This document shows positions 10,013 through 31,110 of a stretch of 64,000 nucleotides of DNA, in pieces. The notes below the pieces were generated by a model that was given only the letters and a program-made list of their open reading frames with translations, did not search any database and was not told the DNA's origin. Source of the stretch: Acidimicrobiales bacterium. Lineage in GTDB: Bacteria > Actinomycetota > Acidimicrobiia > Acidimicrobiales > Palsa-688. Position numbers and translations under genes: made by a program. Numbering within the stretch: position 1 is the stretch's first letter; each line of letters begins with the position of its first letter. The stretch spans positions 62,001 to 126,000 of the forward strand of contig DASUWA010000032.1 in assembly GCA_036378675.1 (NCBI GenBank), in the 5' to 3' direction.

Positions 10013-11512
10013 TCACCCCGCAGACGGCGCGGCCTCCGCTTGGGGAAAGACTTCGTGCTCTCCGGCGATCAGGTATCCGTTTCTGCCCGAGTCCTTGGCG
10101 CTATACATGGCCAAGTCGGCGTCGCGGAGCATCGTCTCGACGTCATCGTGACCAGAACGGCTGACCGCGACTCCGACGCTGGCCCCAACAGTAACTGTCA
10201 GGTTCCCGATATCTACGGGACGGCTGACTTCGGCCACGATTCGTTCTGCCAGACTACGAACGCATTGAATGTTCTGGACGGTCCCGATGTCCTCCATGAC
10301 GACGGCGAACTCGTCACCGCCCATACGCGCAACCGTGTCTTCGAGTCTCACGACTTGCGCAAGGCGCCTGCCGATTTCGCGGAGAAGGGCATCCCCGACT
10401 TCGTGCCCCTTTGTGTCGTTGACTGTCTTGAACCGGTCGAGGTCCAGGTAAAGGACTGCGACAGCATGGTTCTGTCGCCGCGCTTTCGACAGCGCCTGGT
10501 TCAGACGTTCGAGGAGCATTGGCCGGTTGGCGAGCCCGGTCAGGCTGTCGTGGTACGCCTGGTAAGCAAGCTGTTCCTGGAACTTCCGCCGCGCCATCTC
10601 GCGCTTATACCCGAGGATGATGATCAATACCGAGGCGATCGCGAGGAGAGCCGTGATGGCGACTTCGACCCGAAGGTTGCTGGCGTGGATCGGTCCAAAG
10701 AACTCAGTGGAGGCTTGAATGGTGAAGCCTGACCATCCGCTGACACCAAAAGGTGCGTAGCTGACCAAGGAGCCATTCTGCGTGTAATCCCCGGACAGGC
10801 TGCGTTGCAGAGCAAGGACTGCACGAGGTTGACCAATCGATCTCCCGACGTCGGCAGGATCCGTGCTTGCGGCGATCGTTCCGTGGGAGTCGACGACGTA
10901 TGACTTGCCGGTTTTTCCGTAACGAATCGACTGGACGTAGGTTTCCAGCGCCGACCGATCAAGTCGCACAAAGCCGACGAACAACGCCTTCGTCTGTCCT
11001 CCCACCGTCAAAGGGACGGCCATCGCGACGACGGGAATTCGGCCAACTTCCATGACTGAGCTGACGTCCGGCTGACCCGACGTGAGGGATGCCACCATGG
11101 GTTGGTAACCCGGGTCGCCAGCCGGAGGGAGGCCGGGACCACTCGTGTACGCGTTGATCGTCTTTCCGTCGAGACTTACCAGGGCTGCGCCATAGTTGAG
11201 CAGGACCGCGTGGGTTACAAAGGTCTGAAGCCGGGAGGTGTCGGCGGGGTCCCCGGGGCGAAGCGACCAAGTCCCGGTGGAGGAGTAGTCGAGACCCTCT
11301 TTGAGGCTGAACAGCACGTATTGCTTGCCGAGCGAAGCCAGGGTCGCCTGGAGGACCTCTCGATCATGCCGATGCAGGGCTGCGGACTTTGAACCCGCAG
11401 ATGACGAAAGCGCTACGCCCAGAGCTCCCGTAGCGAGAACCAGGACCACGCTTACCGCGAAGGGGACGACTCGGCGATATCCGGGCACTCGGTTCTGATC
11501 GGCCTGACGCAA
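10013..11512 (-). CDS. Membrane diguanylate cyclase with extracellular sensor domain
   Basis: 499 aa: transmembrane helix near residues 14-36, an extracytoplasmic dCache/CHASE-like sensor (about 40-275, with GKTGKSYVVDSHGTIAAS), a second helix near 280-302, then a GGDEF domain. The active-site motif is intact (ARMGGDEFAVV) and so is the substrate region YLDLDRFKTVND. An RxxD inhibitory I-site (RLED) stands five residues before GGDEF, so product feedback is likely. The enzyme makes c-di-GMP from two GTP. No EAL domain is present. It lies 103 bp downstream of a surface-protein gene on the same strand. Confidence 0.93.
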   Translation of the reverse strand: MRQADQNRVPGYRRVVPFAVSVVLVLATGALGVALSSSAGSKSAALHRHDREVLQATLASLGKQYVLFSLKEGLDYSSTGTWSLRPGDPADTSRLQTFVTHAVLLNYGAALVSLDGKTINAYTSGPGLPPAGDPGYQPMVASLTSGQPDVSSVMEVGRIPVVAMAVPLTVGGQTKALFVGFVRLDRSALETYVQSIRYGKTGKSYVVDSHGTIAASTDPADVGRSIGQPRAVLALQRSLSGDYTQNGSLVSYAPFGVSGWSGFTIQASTEFFGPIHASNLRVEVAITALLAIASVLIIILGYKREMARRKFQEQLAYQAYHDSLTGLANRPMLLERLNQALSKARRQNHAVAVLYLDLDRFKTVNDTKGHEVGDALLREIGRRLAQVVRLEDTVARMGGDEFAVVMEDIGTVQNIQCVRSLAERIVAEVSRPVDIGNLTVTVGASVGVAVSRSGHDDVETMLRDADLAMYSAKDSGRNGYLIAGEHEVFPQAEAAPSAG

Positions 11513-11615: not shown

Positions 11616-12821
11616 CTACGAGCGGGACTGGATCCAGCGCCGGCTCGTGCCCAGGACCAGGCCGCCGGCGAGGACCAGGATGAGCCCGATCGCCGCCAAC
11701 TCCTCAGACATCGAACCGGTGAAGGCGAGGGCCGAGACAGGGTGCGAGGCGGGCGTCGTGCTCGCCGGGGCGCTCGTCGTGCTGGATCCACCGGGAGTTG
11801 AAGCGTGCGCGGGATCGGTAGTCGCCGGGTCGGTCGGCGGCGGGACGTGGCTGGACGTCGGGCCGTTCCCCGGATCCGAGACCGTGGCAGTCTGCAGGAC
11901 CGGAGCTGTGGTCGGAGAGCTTGTGCCCGGATCAACCGGAACGGTGGTGGTGGGATCGACGGTGGTGGTCGGCGCCACGGTGGTGGTGGGATCGTCGGTG
12001 GTGGTCGGCGCCACGGTGGTGGTGGGATCGTCGGTCGTGGCCGGCGCCACGGTTGTGGTCGGATCGACGGTCGTCGTGGGTGCGACGGTCGTCGTGGGTG
12101 CGACGGTGGTGGTCGGGTCGACGGTGGTGGTCGGGTCGACGGTGGTGGTCGGCGAATCCGATGCACCGAGGACCGGCGGCTTGACGCTGACCGTCGCAAC
12201 GTTTCCCGAACCCCCAGAGATCACCCACAGGTCGCTCTTCGAGCTGTTCAGCTGGCCACTCGGCTGGTTCAGAACCGTGAGGGCCCAAGTGCAGACGATG
12301 TTCCCGTTCGAGTCAGCGGTGACTTGGGGAAGGCTGCCGCTGCTGATCGTCGGGGGAGTCTGAGGAAAACTACCCGAGCCCGGCGCGATCACGTAGTGGC
12401 TTGTGACGGGGTTCGCCGACCCGGACACACAGCCGAGGACGAGCGTGTAGTTCCCGTAGTAGAAGTTGTGCGACGACAGACCTTCATAGGCATCCTCGAG
12501 GGTCAATACCTGGCCGGGCTGAAGACCCGTGTCGGCCAGGTATCCGCTCATTAGGGAGGTGCCCTCTGCCACGTCGCACCCCATCGACGTGTTGATGTTC
12601 TGCTGTAGGCCGGAGCCGGTTGGGACGCCGCAAAGGGAGGGGGTGGCGTTGGCGGAAGGAACGAACACGCTGGAGACTGTCAGCAACCCGCCGGTCGCGA
12701 GGGTCATGGAACCGACAAGCGAGAGGGCCTTGACGACCGGGAGTCGCCGGCCGCCGAAGGCACCGTGGCGTGCTGCCCGTGAGTGCCGCTTGGCCGTTTG
12801 ATTGTCTGCCTGGATTGTCAT
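11616..12821 (-). CDS. Secreted surface protein with PTTTV(D/A) repeats and LAFTG wall anchor
   Basis: Translation from the ATG at 12821 (GAGGG 9 nt upstream) gives 401 aa with a long, basic N-terminus and signal peptide ending near SANA. An extracellular domain of about 170 residues with several Cys follows, then 12 hexapeptide repeats (PTTTVD/PTTTVA/PTTTDD), a Pro/Thr/Ser-rich stalk and a C-terminal sorting signal: LAFTG, hydrophobic helix, RRWIQSRS. LAxTG is the motif of class E sortases in Actinobacteria. The globular domain is not one I recognise. The open frame extends 46 codons upstream but that part lacks a signal-peptide start. No sortase gene is in the window. Confidence 0.85.
   Translation of the reverse strand: MTIQADNQTAKRHSRAARHGAFGGRRLPVVKALSLVGSMTLATGGLLTVSSVFVPSANATPSLCGVPTGSGLQQNINTSMGCDVAEGTSLMSGYLADTGLQPGQVLTLEDAYEGLSSHNFYYGNYTLVLGCVSGSANPVTSHYVIAPGSGSFPQTPPTISSGSLPQVTADSNGNIVCTWALTVLNQPSGQLNSSKSDLWVISGGSGNVATVSVKPPVLGASDSPTTTVDPTTTVDPTTTVAPTTTVAPTTTVDPTTTVAPATTDDPTTTVAPTTTDDPTTTVAPTTTVDPTTTVPVDPGTSSPTTAPVLQTATVSDPGNGPTSSHVPPPTDPATTDPAHASTPGGSSTTSAPASTTPASHPVSALAFTGSMSEELAAIGLILVLAGGLVLGTSRRWIQSRS
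11937..12152 (-). repeat. Twelve 18-bp tandem repeats coding PTTTVx
   Basis: 216 bp made of 12 units of 18 bp, each coding Pro-Thr/Ala-Thr-Thr-Val/Asp-Asp/Ala/Pro. They form the stalk of the LAFTG-anchored protein. Several neighbouring units are almost identical at DNA level, so copy number may vary between strains. Confidence 0.9.
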
Positions 12822-22958: not shown

Positions 22959-23969
22959 ATGTCCGGCGTGCCACGCCTGACCGCTGCTGACGAGCTGTTC
23001 GTTCACCAGATCCCCGAACCGCTCCCGAACGTCGCGGTTCACCATGAGCATTGGCGGGAGAGCTACTTCTTTGTCCTCCACCCGCCTTCGGGTGAGGGCG
23101 ACGTTGTCATCCTCACGATGGCCACCTTCCCAGCAAGGGAGGAGCTGGACTCGCTGCAGCTGGGTCGGGTCGACGGCGAGTTCATATACGCGCGGCACAG
23201 CCGGCCGTACGGTGACGACCCCCAGACGACGGTCGCGGGTCCCCTCTCAGTCGAGATCCTCGAGCCGTACCGCGCGGTTCGCCTTCAGGTCGAGGACAGA
23301 CAAGGAGTTCCCGTCGCGCTCGACCTGACGTTCGAGGCCCGCACCGCCGCGTACGGGCTGCGTCGCGGAACCATGAAGCGGGGGGAGGAGATCATCTGGG
23401 ACCAATCCCACATGATTCAGTCCGGGAACTTCAATGGCACCTACGCCCGCGATGGAAAGACTCACAGCGTCGAGAACTGGGTCGGCCAGCGCGATCACTC
23501 TTGGGGCATTCGCGATCATGCTCGCTGCCCTTTCTGGATGTGGCTGGCGATTCAATTGCCGGACGGGATGCTCGGCGTCTGGCACTGGGAGTACGCGAAC
23601 GGAGCGCGGGTCTTCACCGACGGATGTTTCGCGCCGGCCGATGGTTCCGACCCGATCCCGGTCGTCGATTTCCGCCACGAGCTCAACTGGACCGATGCCG
23701 ATGGCAAACCGGTTTCTTACGACCGTGACGGTCTAGAGGTGCGGGGGCTCTCCGGTTCAGTTGAATTCACGCTGGCTGGCGGGACCTCGATCGTCGTCGT
23801 CGGAGTAGGAACCTGGGCCATCCCATATGGTCCGGTTGGTGGGGGACAGCACCTTATGAAAGTGCGGACAAACGATGGTCGAACTGGTAGCGCGATCTAT
23901 GAACTCACGGGTGCTCACCATCATCGCTACTTTCCCGTCGCCCGCGCGGATCGACTCCCGCCTGGCTAA
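22959..23969 (+). CDS. Conserved hypothetical protein (lipocalin-like/DUF7065-type)
   Basis: A 336-aa soluble protein without signal peptide or membrane helix. It is rich in beta-strand patterns with many Trp and His: VENWVGQRDHSWGIRDHA, FWMWLAIQLPDG, VWHWEYANG, TGAHHHRYFPVARAD. This resembles the actinobacterial DUF7064/DUF7065 proteins, which are thought to have a CrtC/AttH-like double lipocalin fold. No function is established to my knowledge. It stands alone between the tRNA gene and a terminator-like hairpin. Confidence 0.7.
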   Translation: MSGVPRLTAADELFVHQIPEPLPNVAVHHEHWRESYFFVLHPPSGEGDVVILTMATFPAREELDSLQLGRVDGEFIYARHSRPYGDDPQTTVAGPLSVEILEPYRAVRLQVEDRQGVPVALDLTFEARTAAYGLRRGTMKRGEEIIWDQSHMIQSGNFNGTYARDGKTHSVENWVGQRDHSWGIRDHARCPFWMWLAIQLPDGMLGVWHWEYANGARVFTDGCFAPADGSDPIPVVDFRHELNWTDADGKPVSYDRDGLEVRGLSGSVEFTLAGGTSIVVVGVGTWAIPYGPVGGGQHLMKVRTNDGRTGSAIYELTGAHHHRYFPVARADRLPPG

Positions 23970-23985
23970 ACCGCGCTTCGCGGTT
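23969..23985 (+). terminator. Terminator-like hairpin
   Basis: AACCGCG and CGCGGTT form a perfect 7-bp stem with a 3-nt loop directly at the stop of the preceding gene. A real T-run is missing, as is common in high-GC genomes. Confidence 0.55.
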
Positions 23986-24076
23986 GGTTCATCGTTGTTC
24001 CCGTATTGCCGAAACCCACCTCTTTTGTAGTGATTGATACAGCATCTTGATGGTCGCCGAGCCGAATGCTCGGAAG

Positions 24077-24152
24077 AGGGCGAGAGCTTTGAACCTCAGG
24101 CCGCATTTGGTCGCCTGATCTGAGGGGAGCTAGTGGCGAAACCGACGCCTTA
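24077..24152 (+). ncRNA. Structured leader RNA element, copy A
   Basis: This copy and the one at 24397 share about three quarters of their bases, including long invariant stretches (TTGAACC, ATTTGGTCGCC, AGTGGCGAA, CCGACGCC). The outer stem is AGGGCG with CGCCTT. The inner hairpin pairs CCTCAG (24094-24099) with CTGAGG (24120-24125). The hairpin loop has TCGCC (24111-24115), which can pair with GGCGA (24135-24139) as a pseudoknot. Inner-hairpin bases differ from copy B while pairing is kept, which is covariation. No Rfam class that I know matches. It lies in the non-coding region upstream of the secreted-protein operon. Confidence 0.6.
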
Positions 24153-24396
24153 GTTAAAGGTCAAGTCGTCGTCACGAAGGGGCAGAAGCCGTTGAAGCAC
24201 GCCGCTCAAACACGAGCAGCACTCCGCGCCCGCTTCTCTTCCTTGGCGATTACTTGTCCCACCGACGGTGTTGGGGGGTTACCCCCGACCGTCTCCCCCT
24301 CAGCCACCCCGCACCGGTGGGTGAGTCCGCTGGGGGATCCAGTCGCAGGCTCTGCGCCTGCTGATTCCAACACAGGACCCCAGCGGTTCCTGGAGA

Positions 24397-24472
24397 AGGG
24401 CGACACGTTGAACCACGGGCCCAATTTGGTCGCCCGGCCCGTGGGGAGTGAGTGGCGAACCCGACGCCCTAG
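24397..24472 (+). ncRNA. Structured leader RNA element, copy B
   Basis: Outer stem AGGGCG (24397-24402) pairs with CGCCCT (24465-24470). The inner hairpin is nine perfect pairs, CCACGGGCC (24413-24421) with GGCCCGTGG (24436-24444). The 14-nt loop contains TCGCC (24430-24434), which can pair with GGCGA (24454-24458); it could also pair with the 5' GGGCGA of the outer stem, giving two exclusive folds. It ends about 40 nt before the first secreted-protein gene. Upstream of it, CCGCTGGGG and CCCCAGCGG (about 24327-24385) form a further strong stem. Function as a riboswitch or protein-binding leader is inferred. Confidence 0.65.
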
Positions 24473-24511
24473 TCGAGTAACCAACCAACTCCCAAGGAGA
24501 ACATTCAACCA

Positions 24512-25081
24512 ATGAGCAAGTTCAGCAACCTCAAGTTGCGTCACAAGATCGGCGTCGGTGTTGCTACCGGTGCCGCTGTCCTCGGCGCCGCCGGCGGTGG
24601 CGCATTCGCTTACTGGGGCTCGTCCGGTAGCGGTACCGGATCGGCTTCGACCGACACTGCGCATTCGAGCCTCACCTACTCCAACACCACGATCAGCGGG
24701 CTTGGTCCGGGGGTTGCGGCGGCGACGTTCACCGCCACGGTTGGTAATACCGGGACGCAGAACTCCTATGTGAGCAGCCTCTCGGCCTACCTCACCGTCA
24801 CCGAAACTGCCAGCGAGATCGCTCTTTGGGGTGATCCCTCCACATCTTCGGCTGGGTCGCAGGGTACCTATTACTGCTCCTCCGCCGACTACACCCTTGA
24901 CGGCACCGCCGGGACAAGCTCCAGCAGCAAGCAGGCCCTGAACTGGACCGCCCAGGACATCAATCATGGCTCGCAGGCTTCTAACAACGGCACCGACACG
25001 GTCGGCTTCAAGGACCTCCCGACCACGGACCAGGACGCTTGCCAGGGCGCAACCGTCACCATCCACTACAGCAGCAACTAG
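24512..25081 (+). CDS. Secreted TasA/camelysin-like protein with SipW-type signal
   Basis: 189 aa. The N-terminus (basic start, then VGVATGAAVLGAAGGGAFAYW) has the form of SipW-dependent signal peptides, which precede TasA and camelysin in Bacillus. The mature part is a small Ser/Thr/Gly-rich beta protein with VTVTETASEI-like strands and two Cys. The likely role is an extracellular fibre or surface-layer component; that is inferred from the signal type and composition. AAGGAGA lies 12 nt before the ATG. It is followed by a strong terminator, so it may be made in excess over the genes downstream. Confidence 0.7.
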   Translation: MSKFSNLKLRHKIGVGVATGAAVLGAAGGGAFAYWGSSGSGTGSASTDTAHSSLTYSNTTISGLGPGVAAATFTATVGNTGTQNSYVSSLSAYLTVTETASEIALWGDPSTSSAGSQGTYYCSSADYTLDGTAGTSSSSKQALNWTAQDINHGSQASNNGTDTVGFKDLPTTDQDACQGATVTIHYSSN

Positions 25082-25093
25082 CAACTCGCGTGC

Positions 25094-25129
25094 CTTCTGG
25101 GGGACGGTGCAGGCACCGTCCCCCAGAAG
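25094..25129 (+). terminator. Strong 17-bp perfect hairpin terminator
   Basis: CTTCTGGGGGACGGTGC (25094-25110) and its exact complement (25113-25129) flank 2 nt, so the helix is 16-17 bp with a tiny loop. It lies 13 nt after the stop of the TasA-like gene. No poly-T follows, but the helix strength suggests termination or 3'-end protection. Confidence 0.75.
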
Positions 25130-25227
25130 CATCTTCGGTCCGCTGAGGACAGCGACATTCTCCCTTGGTTTCCCCGGGGGATTGTCGGTGATCTCACCAG
25201 TTGTTTGCGAGTCGTAGGAGCCTGTGA

Positions 25228-27024
25228 GTGAGAAAGTCGAGACACATGCGAGGTGCAGTCAAGGTCAGCGTGATGGCGCTGGTCCTTGCCGCGCTTGCTG
25301 CGGCTGGCTCCGGTGTGGCTCCCAAGGCTCTACCGAAGTACTCCCTTCTGACCTCCACCGCAGGAGATTTCACCATCCACGGCACTGTTTACCCGTGGCC
25401 CTCGTGCGCTGGTGCTAGCCCTGCATCTCTTGCCCCAGGCCGGTCCGATTGTCTACTGCTGTCGGTGACCGACAACTTGCAGGTAGCGATTTCCGTTACC
25501 CAGATCACAGCGCAGATCACGTCCGCGGTGTACGCAGATTCGGGCGCGGCACCTAGTCACTGTGTTACCTACCTCAGCCCGAAGTTCACCGCCGCTCCAT
25601 TGTCATCGCCTAGCTATCCTTATCCCTACAGCTACACCTGGACTGGGCTAACGCTTCACCCGAGTGGCCACAACCAGAGTGATCAGGTCGCTGAGCCGTT
25701 CTCGTTCACGGATTTGCCGGCGTCCAATCAGAGCGACTGCGAAGGGGTCAAGTACACCTTCAACTACACAGGCGCCGGTACCTACACCGAGGTCTATGGC
25801 ACCTCGACAGCGCTCGGCTCCTCTCTGAACCCGTCGGCGTTCGGCCAGCCGGTCACCTACACGGCGACGGTGACGGCCTCGGCTACAGCCAGCCAGGACC
25901 CAGTGCCGTCCAGCCCGACCGGCACGGTGACCTTCAAGGACAACGGCGCGACGATCTGCAACGCAGTGGCGGTCACGAGCGCATCGACCACCACGGCCAC
26001 GGCTTCGTGCGTGGCTCCGGCCAACATGAGCGTCGGCACTCATCCGATCACCGCGGCATATTCGAACAGCGACGGAAACTTCTCCGGCAGCACCTCCTCC
26101 ACGCTGAACCAGGTGGTCAACCGGGCGACGACATCCACTGCTGTGACGACCTCGCCGAACCCGTCGAACTACGGCCAGTCGGTGACCCTGAACGCTACTG
26201 TCACACCCTCATCTGGGCCTGCCCCGGCAGGCTCGGTCAGCTTCTACCTCGGAGCGCCGACCGCCAACCACACACTCATCGGTTCCGGGACGCTCAACGC
26301 CTCGGGTAAGGCGACCGTCTCGACCACAACACTCCCCGGCGGCAGCGACAGCCTGTATGCGGTCTACGCCGGCAGCACCAGCGACTCTGGGAGCACCTCG
26401 CCGGTCGTCAGCCAGACCGTCAACTTCAGTTCCACTATCAGCGGCAAGAGCAACGGAAACGTGACGGTCGCGTCCGGCCAGGACGTGGCGATCACGTCGA
26501 CCGGGTCCGTCACCGGCAACATCACCGTGAGCACCGGCGGACGCCTCGACATCCTCGGCGGCAGCGTCGGAGGCAACGTCACCGTCGCTTCGGGTGGTGG
26601 CATCAACGTTCAGACCGGCACCATCGGCGGAAGTCTCAATGCCACCAGCCCCAACTACTTCACCGTATGCGGTGCCAAGGTCTCCGGCAACCTGTCGGCG
26701 ACCGGCTCCACCGCCTTCGCCCTAGTCGGCGACGGCGGCGACGACGGCAGCCCCGCCTGCGCCGGCAACACGATCAGCGGCAACCTCACCCTGACCAACA
26801 GCACCGCCGGGGCAGAGATCGGCGGCAACACCGTCTCCGGCGGGATCAGCCTGACCGGCACGACCGGCACGGGACCCAGCACTGAGAACTCCGTTCCTGA
26901 GGTTGAGAAGAACACCGTCGGCAGTGGGCTGGCGTGCTCCTCGAATACGCCGGCCCCCACGAGCGACGGGCTGCCCAACAAGGTGTCCGGCAAGAGTTCC
27001 GGCCAATGCGTGGCGGGCTTCTGA
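25228..27024 (+). CDS. Large secreted protein with Ig-like repeats and a beta-solenoid end
   Basis: 598 aa from a GTG with TAGGAG 7 nt upstream. A hydrophobic signal segment (about residues 8-30) is followed by a camelysin-like N-terminal domain of about 165 residues. Two bacterial Ig-like (Big_5-type) domains follow, of the pattern TTSPNPSNYGQSVTLNATVTP...GSVSFY. From residue about 405, short Gly-rich repeats of the NGNVTVASGQDVAITS/GNITVSTGG type suggest a right-handed beta-helix. No LPxTG-like motif or C-terminal helix is present, so it is probably released or bound by partners. Its stop overlaps the next start (TGATG). Confidence 0.72.
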   Translation: MRKSRHMRGAVKVSVMALVLAALAAAGSGVAPKALPKYSLLTSTAGDFTIHGTVYPWPSCAGASPASLAPGRSDCLLLSVTDNLQVAISVTQITAQITSAVYADSGAAPSHCVTYLSPKFTAAPLSSPSYPYPYSYTWTGLTLHPSGHNQSDQVAEPFSFTDLPASNQSDCEGVKYTFNYTGAGTYTEVYGTSTALGSSLNPSAFGQPVTYTATVTASATASQDPVPSSPTGTVTFKDNGATICNAVAVTSASTTTATASCVAPANMSVGTHPITAAYSNSDGNFSGSTSSTLNQVVNRATTSTAVTTSPNPSNYGQSVTLNATVTPSSGPAPAGSVSFYLGAPTANHTLIGSGTLNASGKATVSTTTLPGGSDSLYAVYAGSTSDSGSTSPVVSQTVNFSSTISGKSNGNVTVASGQDVAITSTGSVTGNITVSTGGRLDILGGSVGGNVTVASGGGINVQTGTIGGSLNATSPNYFTVCGAKVSGNLSATGSTAFALVGDGGDDGSPACAGNTISGNLTLTNSTAGAEIGGNTVSGGISLTGTTGTGPSTENSVPEVEKNTVGSGLACSSNTPAPTSDGLPNKVSGKSSGQCVAGF

Positions 27025-27506
27025 TGTCAACTCTTCGTCGCAGGCAGCGACAACTTGTAGTCAGTCTGGCGGTCGCCGTCGCGGTTCTCGCAATCGGCAG
27101 CGGATTGGCCTTCGCCTATTTCAAGTCATCTGGATCCGGCTCAGGCACCGCATCCGTTGGAAACCCGGTAGCCGTCACCGTCGCCGCAGCCACGGCTGCC
27201 AACGACCTCTACCCGGGGCAGTCTGGCACCGTTAAGTTCACCCTCAAGAACACCAACTCGTTCACCGCCAACTTCACCTCTGTCACGGGCGCCACGGTCA
27301 CGTCGGGTAACCCGAGCGGCTGCCCTGCCGGCAACATCGTCGTCGCCACCCTGCCACTGACAATCTCCAAGATCACGGTGACATCAGGTCAAACGACCGG
27401 GACGCAAACGATCTCCACCCTGATCTCCATGTCCGGTACGGCCCCCAACGCCTGCCAGGGGGTCGCCTTCACAGTCTCTCTGACCTTGTCAGGGCAGACC
27501 TCCTAA
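27024..27506 (+). CDS. Secreted SipW-signal-type small protein
   Basis: 160 aa from the ATG overlapping the previous stop; an upstream extension of the frame is antiparallel noise over the preceding gene. The N-terminus RRRQRQLVVSLAVAVAVLA then AFAYFKSSGSGSGTA is a SipW-type signal peptide. The mature domain is a Thr/Ser-rich beta protein (DLYPGQSGTVKFTLKNTNSF, then a conserved CQGVAFTVSL end). The two Cys may form a disulfide. Similar end motifs (ANGCQGATFTMPV, DACQGATVTIHY) occur in its neighbours, showing they are paralogues. Confidence 0.72.
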   Translation: MSTLRRRQRQLVVSLAVAVAVLAIGSGLAFAYFKSSGSGSGTASVGNPVAVTVAAATAANDLYPGQSGTVKFTLKNTNSFTANFTSVTGATVTSGNPSGCPAGNIVVATLPLTISKITVTSGQTTGTQTISTLISMSGTAPNACQGVAFTVSLTLSGQTS

Positions 27507-27539
27507 CCAGTCAAAGAAACCACGAAGGAACGAGTCCTA

Positions 27540-28193
27540 ATGAACCTCCGCAGCCACCGAAACCAAGGTTTGGGCGAGTCCAAGCCCGGCCGCAAGAGCT
27601 ATCTCCGTCATGTCGTCGCAGGGGGGACCGCCGTTTTAATCCTCTCCGCCGGAGGCATTGCCTGGGCGACTTGGACCAACACCGCCACTGGTAGCTCCGC
27701 TGCCGGTGGCGGGACGCTGAGTCTGACGGTCGTGTCCGCTGGCTCCTCGTTCACCAACAAGCTGTTCCCTGGATCCGTCGCTGGTCAAGCCTCAGGTGCC
27801 ACCGAGGGTGGTGACCTCGTATTGAACGTGACCAATCCGCAGAACTTTGCTGTCAAGATCACCGCGGTCACACAGAACGGCCCGGTGACACAATCGGGTG
27901 GTTCGGGTTCGCCAGCTTGCACCAGCGATACTCAGGGCACCGCCAATAGTTCCGGTGGATTCAACATTTCTACCTTTGGCAACAGTGGCGTGTGGATCAG
28001 CGCGACGCAACCGACCGGCACGAGCCCCACCGTCTACACAACGTTCACCATAGGTTCGGCGGTCACCGTCGCAGCCAACGCCACCAACACTTCGGTCACC
28101 TTGCCGAACGTTGTATCAATGGCGACCAGCTCAGCAAATGGTTGCCAGGGTGCAACCTTCACAATGCCCGTGATCCTCTCGATCAGCATGTAG
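27540..28193 (+). CDS. Secreted SipW-signal-type protein, paralogue
   Basis: 217 aa, 33 bp after the previous gene, with GAAGGAACGAG before the ATG. Signal segment HVVAGGTAVLILSAGGIAWATWTN, then a beta-rich domain with KLFPGSVAGQASGATEGGDLVL aligned with the LYPGQSGTVKFTL block of its neighbour, and the shared C-terminal NGCQGATFTMPV. It is another small surface or fibre component candidate. The localisation is inferred from the signal and lack of membrane anchor. Confidence 0.7.
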   Translation: MNLRSHRNQGLGESKPGRKSYLRHVVAGGTAVLILSAGGIAWATWTNTATGSSAAGGGTLSLTVVSAGSSFTNKLFPGSVAGQASGATEGGDLVLNVTNPQNFAVKITAVTQNGPVTQSGGSGSPACTSDTQGTANSSGGFNISTFGNSGVWISATQPTGTSPTVYTTFTIGSAVTVAANATNTSVTLPNVVSMATSSANGCQGATFTMPVILSISM

Positions 28194-28248
28194 CAGGAGG
28201 AAGAGAAGAATTCAGATCCAGGCTCGACGGGTGGTGGGATCGACCGCG

Positions 28249-28803
28249 ATGAGGTTCTTTCATCACTCGTCCGAGATCGTGCCCTCATACATGAACAGGT
28301 TGATATCTAAGACAATGAGCGGAAGACTAGGACACGTTGGAGGCGCCGAACGGAAGTCGTTTGGGCGGTGGTCGAAGTGTGTCGTCACGATCCTTTCGGT
28401 CGTAGGCCTTCTCTCCACCGGGGGCGTCGCTTTCGCCGCATGGACCAACAAATCCGGTAGCGGGAACGGCGCCGCGGGCGCGGGTACATTAGGTACGCCA
28501 AGTAGCTTTGCTGCGACGTGCCACAGTGGCACCTCTCGTCAAATAGACTTTTCGTGGAGCACGGTGACGAATGCGGGGGGCTACACCATCCTCGACTCGT
28601 CGACGCTCAGTGGAACTTATAGCCAATTGCAAACTGTCTCTGGTGGCAGCACAACGAGCGCAAACTCCGGTAACAATCTGAACGCTGGTACGTACTACTT
28701 CAAAATTGAGGCAACTACTGGCTCCTGGACCGGCGGCCTATCATCGGCCTCGGGCCCGCGCACGATCGTGCATGTGTCTGGTAACTCGTACACCTGCTCC
28801 TAG
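28249..28803 (+). CDS. Secreted SipW-signal-type protein with FN3-like domain
   Basis: 184 aa from the ATG at 28249; GTG 28231 and ATGs at 28291 and 28315 are alternatives. Signal segment CVVTILSVVGLLSTGGVAFAAWTNKSGSGNGAAG is of the same kind as in the preceding genes. The mature part reads like a fibronectin type III domain (PSSFAATCHSGTSRQIDFSWS, YTILDSSTLSGTYSQLQTV, AGTYYFKIEA). It ends in a lone Cys. Base composition is less GC-rich than its neighbours. Last gene of the cluster, convergent with the DUF222 gene. Confidence 0.66.
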   Translation: MRFFHHSSEIVPSYMNRLISKTMSGRLGHVGGAERKSFGRWSKCVVTILSVVGLLSTGGVAFAAWTNKSGSGNGAAGAGTLGTPSSFAATCHSGTSRQIDFSWSTVTNAGGYTILDSSTLSGTYSQLQTVSGGSTTSANSGNNLNAGTYYFKIEATTGSWTGGLSSASGPRTIVHVSGNSYTCS

Positions 28804-28814
28804 GAGCGATTCCT

Positions 28815-30092
28815 TTAACCGGCGCATGGTTGGTGGGTAGTGATCGCTGCTACGACTGGCCGGCGAGGTTGGCTCGTCCCGATGAGCGTCCGGTCAGGCC
28901 GGTAGAAGGTCAGAACTCCGTTTGGTTCACCTTCGACGATGTACCCACCCTTATGGATCAGGTCATGATGGTGAGTGCACTGGAGATACCCGTTGGCCAC
29001 GTCGGTGGGACCACCCTTCGACCACCAGTGGTGATGGTGGATATCGACGAACTGGCGGTGGGTGCAGCCGGGGAACCGGCATATGCCGCCGTCTCTCACG
29101 ATGATGGCCCGCCTCTGAGCGGTGCTCCATTCCCTGGTCTTGCGACCCAGAGCGAGCGGCTCGCCGCCCTCACCGACCAGGTGAGTAACCGTCGACGCTT
29201 CGCAGGCGATCCGATTGGCAAGGTCGTCCTCAATCGGGGTGCCGTCGAGCATGAAGGTATGGCCGTCCTGAACAACTAGATGGACCATGTAACGGTCGGC
29301 GCCGGCTATTGGAGGGCCGTCGATGTGCTGAAGAGCGACTCGCGCCATGTCTACGAACGCCCGCGCCATTCGAGTCCACAACGGTGCCTCATCGGCGGGA
29401 TCGAGTTGGCAGTCCGCAGCTGCGGAATCATCCACAGCCTCGTCGTGTAACCCGCAATCGTCAGCGGGGCTTTCCGCAGCTGCGGACTCGTCCACAGCCG
29501 GAGCGGGCCATAGTCCGCTGAAGTTTGACTTGCCAAAGGCATCCGCTCGATCGACAAAGGCACGCACGATGGCGAGCAACTCCTCGATCTCAACTTCGGG
29601 CAGCGTTATCTGAAGCGTGGCGGTCCCGTCGCGGTTCGAGCGCACGCCAAGCGTCTGAGGTGGCGCCAGACTCCGGAGCGGCCGCTCCTGGTCGGCGTGC
29701 AGCTTGTAGAAGCGCGCCGCCTTTTCTAGATCGGCGACGGTTCCTGCCTCTGCCAGATCTACGAGAGCCTCGTCGACCTCAGGATCCGGATTCTCGATAC
29801 GGGTGATCACGCGAACAGCCGAGTACGACAGGCTGCCTTCCTGAAATGCCGCAGCGATAATCGGCCGGCGTCGTAGTTCGTGAGCGACTTGGAGCTTCTC
29901 GTAGGCGGTGGAACGGGCCATCTTCAACCGCCATGAAAGCCAGTCGACGCACGTGTACTGACCATCTGCAGCCCATTCACCGGTCAAGTCGAACTCCGCC
30001 AGGCGCTGGAGCCAGACCGCCTCGCCGCGCTCCATTTCCAACCGATGAGCAACCAGCCACTCACCGGTCCGTTCTTCGAGCAACAAGCTCAA
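28815..30092 (-). CDS. DUF222 domain / HNH endonuclease protein (13E12-repeat type)
   Basis: 425 aa from a TTG at 30092 that has a perfect AGGAGG (30099-30104) six bases upstream. A further 77 codons are open upstream but overlap the divergent membrane-protein gene. The DUF222 region (LSWRLKMARSTAYEKLQVAHELRRR) leads to a C-terminal HNH domain: CRFPGCTHRQFVDIHHHHWW, then LQCTHHHDLIHKGG, with Cys pairs and catalytic His intact. Members are multi-copy in mycobacteria (REP13E12) and other Actinobacteria; their role, probably DNA cutting tied to mobility or defence, is not established. An Asp/Ala-rich acidic spacer (residues about 205-240) separates the two parts. Confidence 0.85.
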   Translation of the reverse strand: MSLLLEERTGEWLVAHRLEMERGEAVWLQRLAEFDLTGEWAADGQYTCVDWLSWRLKMARSTAYEKLQVAHELRRRPIIAAAFQEGSLSYSAVRVITRIENPDPEVDEALVDLAEAGTVADLEKAARFYKLHADQERPLRSLAPPQTLGVRSNRDGTATLQITLPEVEIEELLAIVRAFVDRADAFGKSNFSGLWPAPAVDESAAAESPADDCGLHDEAVDDSAAADCQLDPADEAPLWTRMARAFVDMARVALQHIDGPPIAGADRYMVHLVVQDGHTFMLDGTPIEDDLANRIACEASTVTHLVGEGGEPLALGRKTREWSTAQRRAIIVRDGGICRFPGCTHRQFVDIHHHHWWSKGGPTDVANGYLQCTHHHDLIHKGGYIVEGEPNGVLTFYRPDRTLIGTSQPRRPVVAAITTHQPCAG

Positions 30093-30267
30093 GAGGGACC
30101 TCCTAACAACAAACCTCAGAACGCGTGTTCGAAAGTCTACGAAAGGGGTGTGACGACAACGATGGGTCCCAAGACGGAATGTGACGGCACGCCAATCCGG
30201 CAATGCGTCATACTCATCGGGTGGACCGGAACAAGGGTTCGCTTGCCTGCGAAACAACGCCTCACCG

Positions 30268-31110
30268 ATGAGCACCTCCGAAGCCGTCCCGACCGGCGTC
30301 CAGGCCCAGGCCGGTGCGAGCACGACCGCCCGTCCGCCGCTTCCACCGCCCCTGGTCCACCTCTACCGCCACCCGATCCGGTGGGTCAAGAACAAGGCGA
30401 TCCTGCTACTCGACGCAATCGTCCTCGCCCACATCGGTGTCCTGGTCGTCGCTGCTCTCTACTTCCTGATAACCCAGACCAATCACGACGTAAAACACTG
30501 GTGGGACACGACCGTCACTCCGGCGAGCCTTCGACACGACATTCGCGATGTTGGAGAAGGTGTCCTGGCCTCCTGCTTCGCCCAGGCGATCGTTTGGAAC
30601 TCGTTTACCCGCAGCCACCTGCGCGCGGGCCACACGCTCCGCGAGTGGAGCAAGAAGTACCACGTCCCGGTAGGCATCCTCTCGGTCGCCGCGGCAACCC
30701 TCATCGGTGCCGCGGCCTTCGCGATCGGAGAGCTGATCCTTCACACCGCCGCGGTGCACGCAGCCAACCACAAGGTGACCGGGTCGATCTGGAACCGGAC
30801 CCTGACGCTATGGAACTCCAACTGGGACAAGAAGGCGCTCGGCTTCGTCGCTGCCCTGGTCGCCCGTCGTCCGCTTCACATCCTCTTCGACAGGACCCAG
30901 GCGTATTTCGCCGGGCGGCGGGCCGCGTCGGGCAAACCGTTGCGTTGGTACCACCCGCCGGTGTTCCAGGCCCGGTACAACTACCTGAAGGAGAACCTCC
31001 ACGAGGTCCGCAGGTATCCGATCCTCCTGAGCGCGGCCCTGACCCTTCTGCTGACTATCGGTGTCGGTCTCGCCGGCTACGGCTACTACATCCTCACCTA
31101 CAAGGCGTAG
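30268..31110 (+). CDS. Membrane protein of unknown function
   Basis: 280 aa from the ATG before STSEAVPTGVQAQAG; codons upstream of that lie antisense to the DUF222 leader. Three clear membrane helices: LLLDAIVLAHIGVLVVAALYFL near 45, VGILSVAAATLIGAAAFAIGEL near 135 and ILLSAALTLLLTIGVGLAGYGYYIL at the C-terminus. Basic loops lie between them (PIRWVKNKAIL, RRPLHILFDRTQAYFAGRRA). I do not recognise a family. It converges on livF with a 22-bp gap. Confidence 0.7.
   Translation: MSTSEAVPTGVQAQAGASTTARPPLPPPLVHLYRHPIRWVKNKAILLLDAIVLAHIGVLVVAALYFLITQTNHDVKHWWDTTVTPASLRHDIRDVGEGVLASCFAQAIVWNSFTRSHLRAGHTLREWSKKYHVPVGILSVAAATLIGAAAFAIGELILHTAAVHAANHKVTGSIWNRTLTLWNSNWDKKALGFVAALVARRPLHILFDRTQAYFAGRRAASGKPLRWYHPPVFQARYNYLKENLHEVRRYPILLSAALTLLLTIGVGLAGYGYYILTYKA

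Follow-up and report, generated by a model that had tools for sequence, protein, structure and literature searches.

The closest described relatives of the RNA elements reported here are the c-di-GMP-II riboswitches (RF01786), for which the ligand contacts in 3Q3Z include U37, C68, A69, A70, C71, C72, G73 and A74 (PMC7288161). The class-II switches of C. difficile are ON switches and regulate type IV pili as well as adhesins of the collagen-binding and thioester kinds (PMC11477304), and in Actinomycetota translational platforms are favoured (PMC12452182). Class-II aptamers are also known in tandem, as 59 doublets and 9 triplets, mostly from Paraclostridium (PMC9481103). Two variant models accompany the parent: the consensus of c-di-GMP-II-GAG (RF03169) is GGCGA-G-A-CC-G and that of c-di-GMP-II-GCG (RF03170) is GGCGA-G-C-CC-G, the parent having A-A-CC-G, and we infer that the letters of the variant names stand for positions 69, 70 and 73. 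The abstract of the source study reportedly suggests that variants of this kind may have other signalling molecules as ligands.

The locus described here lies in a 64 000 nt stretch of DNA from an Acidimicrobiales bacterium (the window). As in the known tandems (PMC9481103), a single leader upstream of surface-protein genes holds two class-II aptamers; unlike in those, one of the ligand contacts is not the same in the two copies, and a structured spacer of 236 nt lies between them. The locus is new and its kind, a tandem c-di-GMP-II pair, is already known.

Two elements in one leader

The region from 23986 to 24511 sits between an Rv3169-family gene (22959–23969) and a five-gene operon for secreted proteins (24512–28803). 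It contains two RNA elements in tandem on the forward strand, A (24073–24155) and B (24392–24475), with a non-coding spacer and no gene between them. They share a 66 nt direct repeat, beginning at 24089 and 24408, with 80 % identity (53 of the 66 core bases are the same). An earlier note on this DNA had described two conserved RNA-like copies with starts 320 nt apart; both copies are present, and the measured offset is 319 nt. The stems and the TCGCC/GGCGA loop pairing that it proposed are also found in each copy. Judged from the sequence and from the pairing of this helix in relatives, the pseudoknot is formed by TCGCC at 24111–24115 with GGCGA at 24135–24139 in A, and by TCGCC at 24430–24434 with GGCGA at 24454–24458 in B.

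The observation of two copies is far beyond chance, given cmscan E-values within the 64-kb window of 2e-11 for B and 5e-7 for A and the scores on our own, independent Acidimicrobiia model R1 (78.2 bits for B and 67.1 bits for A). A coding repeat could be argued from an ORF (24192–24515) that spans B and overlaps the start of gene 1 as ATGA, but the GC content of its codon positions is flat (0.63/0.63/0.65), unlike that of real genes. As this is the sole long ORF across the A/B region, the stretch carrying A and B is non-coding. With the E-values also standing against it, a chance or coding repeat has practically no probability left, and covariation across genomes (see below) rules it out. A simple scan of 23900–24600 found no sigma-70-like promoter, and there is no Rho-independent terminator on the forward strand between A and B.

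Class assignment

At the Rfam gathering cut-offs (53.5 bits for RF01786, 47.9 for RF03170 and 40 for RF03169), cmscan assigned B to RF01786, c-di-GMP-II, and A to RF03169, c-di-GMP-II-GAG. A scored 50.6 bits on RF03169, 49.9 on RF01786, just under the cut-off of that model, and 45.0 on RF03170; the corresponding scores of B were 60.0, 61.9 and 65.6 bits. Membership of clan CL00127 thus follows for B from RF01786 and for A from RF03169, and A and B are the only copies in the host genome matched by the three models. P1, P2, P3 and the loop pseudoknot are present in both, as read from the sequence and from covariation in relatives. By their sequence, A and B are class-II c-di-GMP riboswitch aptamers of clan CL00127.

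The earlier note had placed the elements in no known Rfam class, having dismissed c-di-GMP-II, and had read them as a new riboswitch class; it had itself named a match to a known class as evidence against that reading, and running cmscan on Rfam produced such matches for both copies. Nothing beyond sequence divergence from Clostridium members speaks for a new class, which is scarcely credible given that the elements share their fold, pseudoknot and core words with c-di-GMP-II and is ruled out by the Rfam matches over the cut-off. The note was right in the more general part of its reading, that a regulatory RNA or riboswitch in tandem precedes an operon for secreted proteins.

Both copies resemble RF01786 in P1, P2, P3, the loop pseudoknot, the U37–A69 platform and G73; the AAG core is complete in A, and the targets are surface or secreted proteins. 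They depart from it in their GC-rich actinobacterial scaffold, in a pseudoknot made of UCGCC and GGCGA, in having no intrinsic terminator and, for B, in a C at position 70. The likeness to RF03169 lies in the overall sequence, with A and B both over its cut-off, but both have U37–A69 where the GAG consensus has C37–G69. Similarly, RF03170 gives B its best bit score and shares C70 and G73 with it, but B has A69 and U37 where GCG has G69 and C37.

Relatives and covariation

Matches were found in 79 to 80 of 296 Acidimicrobiia genomes, and model R1 matched 104 of the 395 genomes from the class and, in a sample of the phylum, 120 of 396. Relatives are therefore present in about a quarter of the sampled Acidimicrobiia genomes. 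The set of relatives comprised the fetched loci and 119 further stretches that a pattern scan picked out in named genomes, and its counts are not independent, as some of the named records duplicate other genomes in the set.

In an alignment of 63 relatives, 82 % of cells pair, compared with 34–44 % when the partners are slid, and for the pseudoknot, which shows compensatory changes, the figure is 99.7 %. The covariation score of this alignment was 0.49, against 0.19 for shuffled sequences and 0.07–0.13 for slid partners. The compensatory pairing that the earlier note had claimed is thus borne out, with homologues outside the locus and strong covariation that includes the pseudoknot.

The ligand-contact core

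Positions 37, 69, 70 and 73 are U24108, A24140, A24141 and G24144 in A, the canonical AAG core, and U24427, A24459, C24460 and G24463 in B, an ACG core (i.e. A70C). A has all four of these contacts, while B has C at position 70 with the U37–A69 platform and G73 unchanged. In overall sequence each copy fits a variant model, but neither carries the core of that model: A has A69, A70 and G73 with U37, not the GAG core (G69, A70 and G73 with C37), and B has A69, C70 and G73 with U37, not the GCG core (G69, C70 and G73 with C37). Among 269 parsed aptamers the cores are AAG (143), ACG (56), GAG (53), GCG (3) and a few others, and positions 37 and 69 covary (U–A in 200, C–G in 57). The SipW-type target family (see below) lies behind 8 of 61 ACG and 15 of 151 AAG aptamers, rates that are similar (p 0.48). 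Since ACG is common and stands ahead of the same target family as AAG, c-di-GMP is likely to be the ligand of both A and B.

Seven moaA leaders (L128, L076, L060, L033, L086, L106 and L155) carry c-di-GMP-II-like aptamers 50–262 nt upstream of the gene on the same strand. All seven are of ACG or ACA type and come from one family (f35), and that of L128 is over the RF03170 cut-off. A different ligand is possible for these aptamers, as control of molybdenum-cofactor synthesis by c-di-GMP would be odd.

The target operon and the host's GGDEF domains

The five genes behind B are all on the forward strand. Gene 1 (24512–25081) encodes a small secreted protein with a putative SipW-type signal peptide (AFAYW..GSGTGSA), in which aromatic residues follow the predicted A-x-A cleavage site (AFA-YW). 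Gene 2 (25228–27024) encodes a secreted protein with Ig-like Big_3_5 domains (PF16640, E 2.6e-29). Gene 3 (27024–27506), for another SipW-type secreted protein, is listed as an ORF opening at 26934, but the ATG at 27024, overlapping the gene 2 stop, is the more likely start. A SipW-type secreted protein with a homologue in the L259 operon is encoded by gene 4 (27540–28193), and a secreted protein with the motif AFAAW..GSGNGAAGAG by gene 5 (28231–28803). The earlier note had called these products TasA/camelysin-like; that they are secreted proteins holds, while the TasA/camelysin label is weakly supported, genes 1 and 3 matching PF12389 at 17.4 and 17.9 bits (E 0.004 and 0.003), under the gathering score of 22.5. 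The putative SipW/TasA label draws on these sub-threshold matches, the AxA-aromatic motif and the genome's archaeal-type signal peptidase (TIGR02228, 65.2 bits, over the cut-off). A structure model of the gene 1 product (mean pLDDT 64.6) had no significant PDB match.

Most aptamers among the examined loci lie 15–60 nt upstream of a gene whose product has a Sec signal peptide. SipW-type small secreted proteins of the gene 1 kind are one target family behind aptamers elsewhere, and the targets of GAG aptamers tend to be long secreted proteins. In L095 and L105, GAG-type aptamers stand about 280–310 nt upstream of genes for type IV pilin-like proteins (GGFTLVELLIVIVILGILAAIVV).

The host genome has 20 GGDEF matches, 19 of them over the Pfam cut-off. 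One of the 20 lies inside the window (10079–10558, reverse strand, 169 bits), and a match to an archaeal-type (SipW-like) signal peptidase, at G000:C33:42456-44740, has a GGDEF domain about 1.4 kb away. Elsewhere in the window, a DUF222 gene (28815–30323, reverse strand) is directly 3′ of the operon and convergent with it, and a tandem repeat array with a period of 18/36 bp and about 12 copies occupies 11941–12154.

The proposed expression platform of B

The Shine–Dalgarno sequence of gene 1 (AAGGAG, 24494–24499; ATG at 24512) is found at the same place in four aligned leaders. It is preceded by a linker (24481–24493, CCAACCAACTCCC) that can pair with the B strand at about 24443–24456 (GGGGAGTGAGTGG), with a predicted duplex energy of −14.8 kcal/mol. 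In seven homologous SipW-type loci the linker just upstream of the Shine–Dalgarno sequence is complementary to the aptamer strand GGAGxxAGxGG, and the linker of each matches its own core (on average −17.1 kcal/mol for own linkers against −13.7 kcal/mol for swapped linkers, permutation p 0.004). The pairing is missing in two further SipW-type loci (G019). As the region between B and the Shine–Dalgarno sequence pairs and covaries with the aptamer strand, translational control by linker–aptamer pairing is suggested, and this predicted pairing and the ligand-bound fold are mutually exclusive.

Folding of the B leader gave no clear change in access to the Shine–Dalgarno sequence (0.6–0.97 in the free state against 0.6–1.0 in the bound-like state at most positions). 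In this model the switch of B is therefore not explained by thermodynamics alone. As to its sign, ON is somewhat favoured, by analogy with the C. difficile switches and from the terminators of a tandem in G436 (see below).

Across all loci a general link between linker and Shine–Dalgarno sequence had a mean z of 0.00, and clear alternative pairing was confined to two groups, the SipW-type loci and, as judged by eye, a set of AAG loci whose linker is anti-P1. In the latter (L059, L080, L092, L101, L114 and L122) the linker has a sequence complementary to the 3′ strand of P1 and to the core (GGGGCCGGTCTCG versus CGAAACCGGCCCC) and would form a terminator-like stem without a T run, beside the Shine–Dalgarno sequence.

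The spacer between A and B

The spacer (24156–24391) is predicted to be highly structured (MFE −111.3 kcal/mol, z −4.76), with hairpins at about 24159–24259, 24264–24293, 24299–24325 and 24327–24386. It is single copy in the genome, and a genomic repeat was rejected. No anti-aptamer partner for A was found in it above chance (z 0.2–0.6). The part from 24263 to 24391, including the hairpin beside B, differs in sequence from its counterpart in L201 but shares its architecture (MFE −70.7 and −70.5). Three segments of the forward strand, X (24295–24304), Y (24329–24336) and Z (24378–24386), could form an alternative pairing in which X:Y competes with Y:Z. The same set is found in L201 (1215–1302; CCCUCAGC, GCUGAGGG and CCCUCAGUGG), with a third segment of the CCCUCAGYGG type and two exclusive predicted pairings. 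A strong upstream hairpin was rejected as a general leader feature, the window and L201 being the extremes of a weak overall tendency.

Tandem arrangement and alternative readings

Among the examined loci and match lists, same-leader tandems are rare, the others being L285 and G436. In L285 (3014–3205, reverse strand), from an Actinomycetota MAG, abutting AAG then GAG aptamers precede a gene for a secreted protein. In G436/L293 (4005–4206, reverse strand) two AAG aptamers 118 nt apart each have a terminator using the P1 3′ strand, and since the terminators are built on that strand the ligand would turn this tandem ON. A rule that tandems are always mixed was ruled out by this AAG pair. G438 has two aptamer copies with a short ORF between them. 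In L259 a homologous operon lies behind one ACG aptamer. Copy A may thus have been gained locally, or L259 may have lost its counterpart.

We consider it very probable that A and B are two c-di-GMP-II aptamers in one c-di-GMP-responsive leader, with B the proximal switch and A a second sensor. This reading is supported by the clan-model passes, the covariation, including that of the pseudoknot and of positions 37 and 69, the GGDEF proteins and the secreted targets, and also by the target parity of ACG and AAG, the L259 operon, the linker covariation, the G436/L293 terminators and the translational platforms of Actinomycetota. Counted against it are the non-canonical base that B has at position 70, where the ligand is contacted, the flat Shine–Dalgarno access in folding, and the lack of an above-chance spacer partner for A.

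The difference between A and B at position 70, a ligand contact (PMC7288161), could instead mean that A senses c-di-GMP and B another nucleotide signal, making a logic gate; the C70 aptamers of one family ahead of moaA (ACG or ACA in 7 of 7) and the mixed tandem in L285 would fit this. It is nevertheless quite improbable, as B keeps the U37–A69 platform and G73, the same SipW-type family lies behind ACG and AAG aptamers alike, a single ACG aptamer serves the homologous L259 operon, and the G436 tandem is AAG with AAG. A broader form, in which the A70C pocket of B differs from A in affinity or ligand and yields a two-threshold or two-input switch, is unlikely; if true, ACG would be an unnamed natural c-di-GMP-II variant, widespread in Acidimicrobiia and used at moaA too. 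It is likewise doubtful that B works alone and that A is a relic or recent copy, once serving another gene and now passive in the leader. Neighbouring aptamers elsewhere do lie 1 to 4 kb from one another, each ahead of a gene of its own, the B-like leaders of L201 and L259 have no second copy, and the spacer offered A no switching partner; however, a relic is expected to decay, and A keeps a canonical core, an intact P3 and pseudoknot and 67 bits on R1.

Proposed mechanism and significance

Under the preferred reading, of two c-di-GMP sensors probably co-transcribed on one RNA, c-di-GMP from the host's many GGDEF proteins would bind to both pockets, each of them built from P1, P2, P3 and the loop pseudoknot. 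In ligand-free B, the strand at 24443–24456 would pair with the linker at 24481–24493; binding would abolish this pairing and change access to the adjacent Shine–Dalgarno sequence. A would act as an upstream second sensor beyond the structured spacer, its simplest role being to steepen the response to the same ligand.

A seemingly unknown RNA is thus assigned to a known class of c-di-GMP sensors. Two pockets in one leader that differ at a single ligand contact are a natural test of the effect of that base on affinity and specificity. The Acidimicrobiia, which are largely uncultured soil and water bacteria, appear to use c-di-GMP-II widely for the control of secreted and surface proteins.
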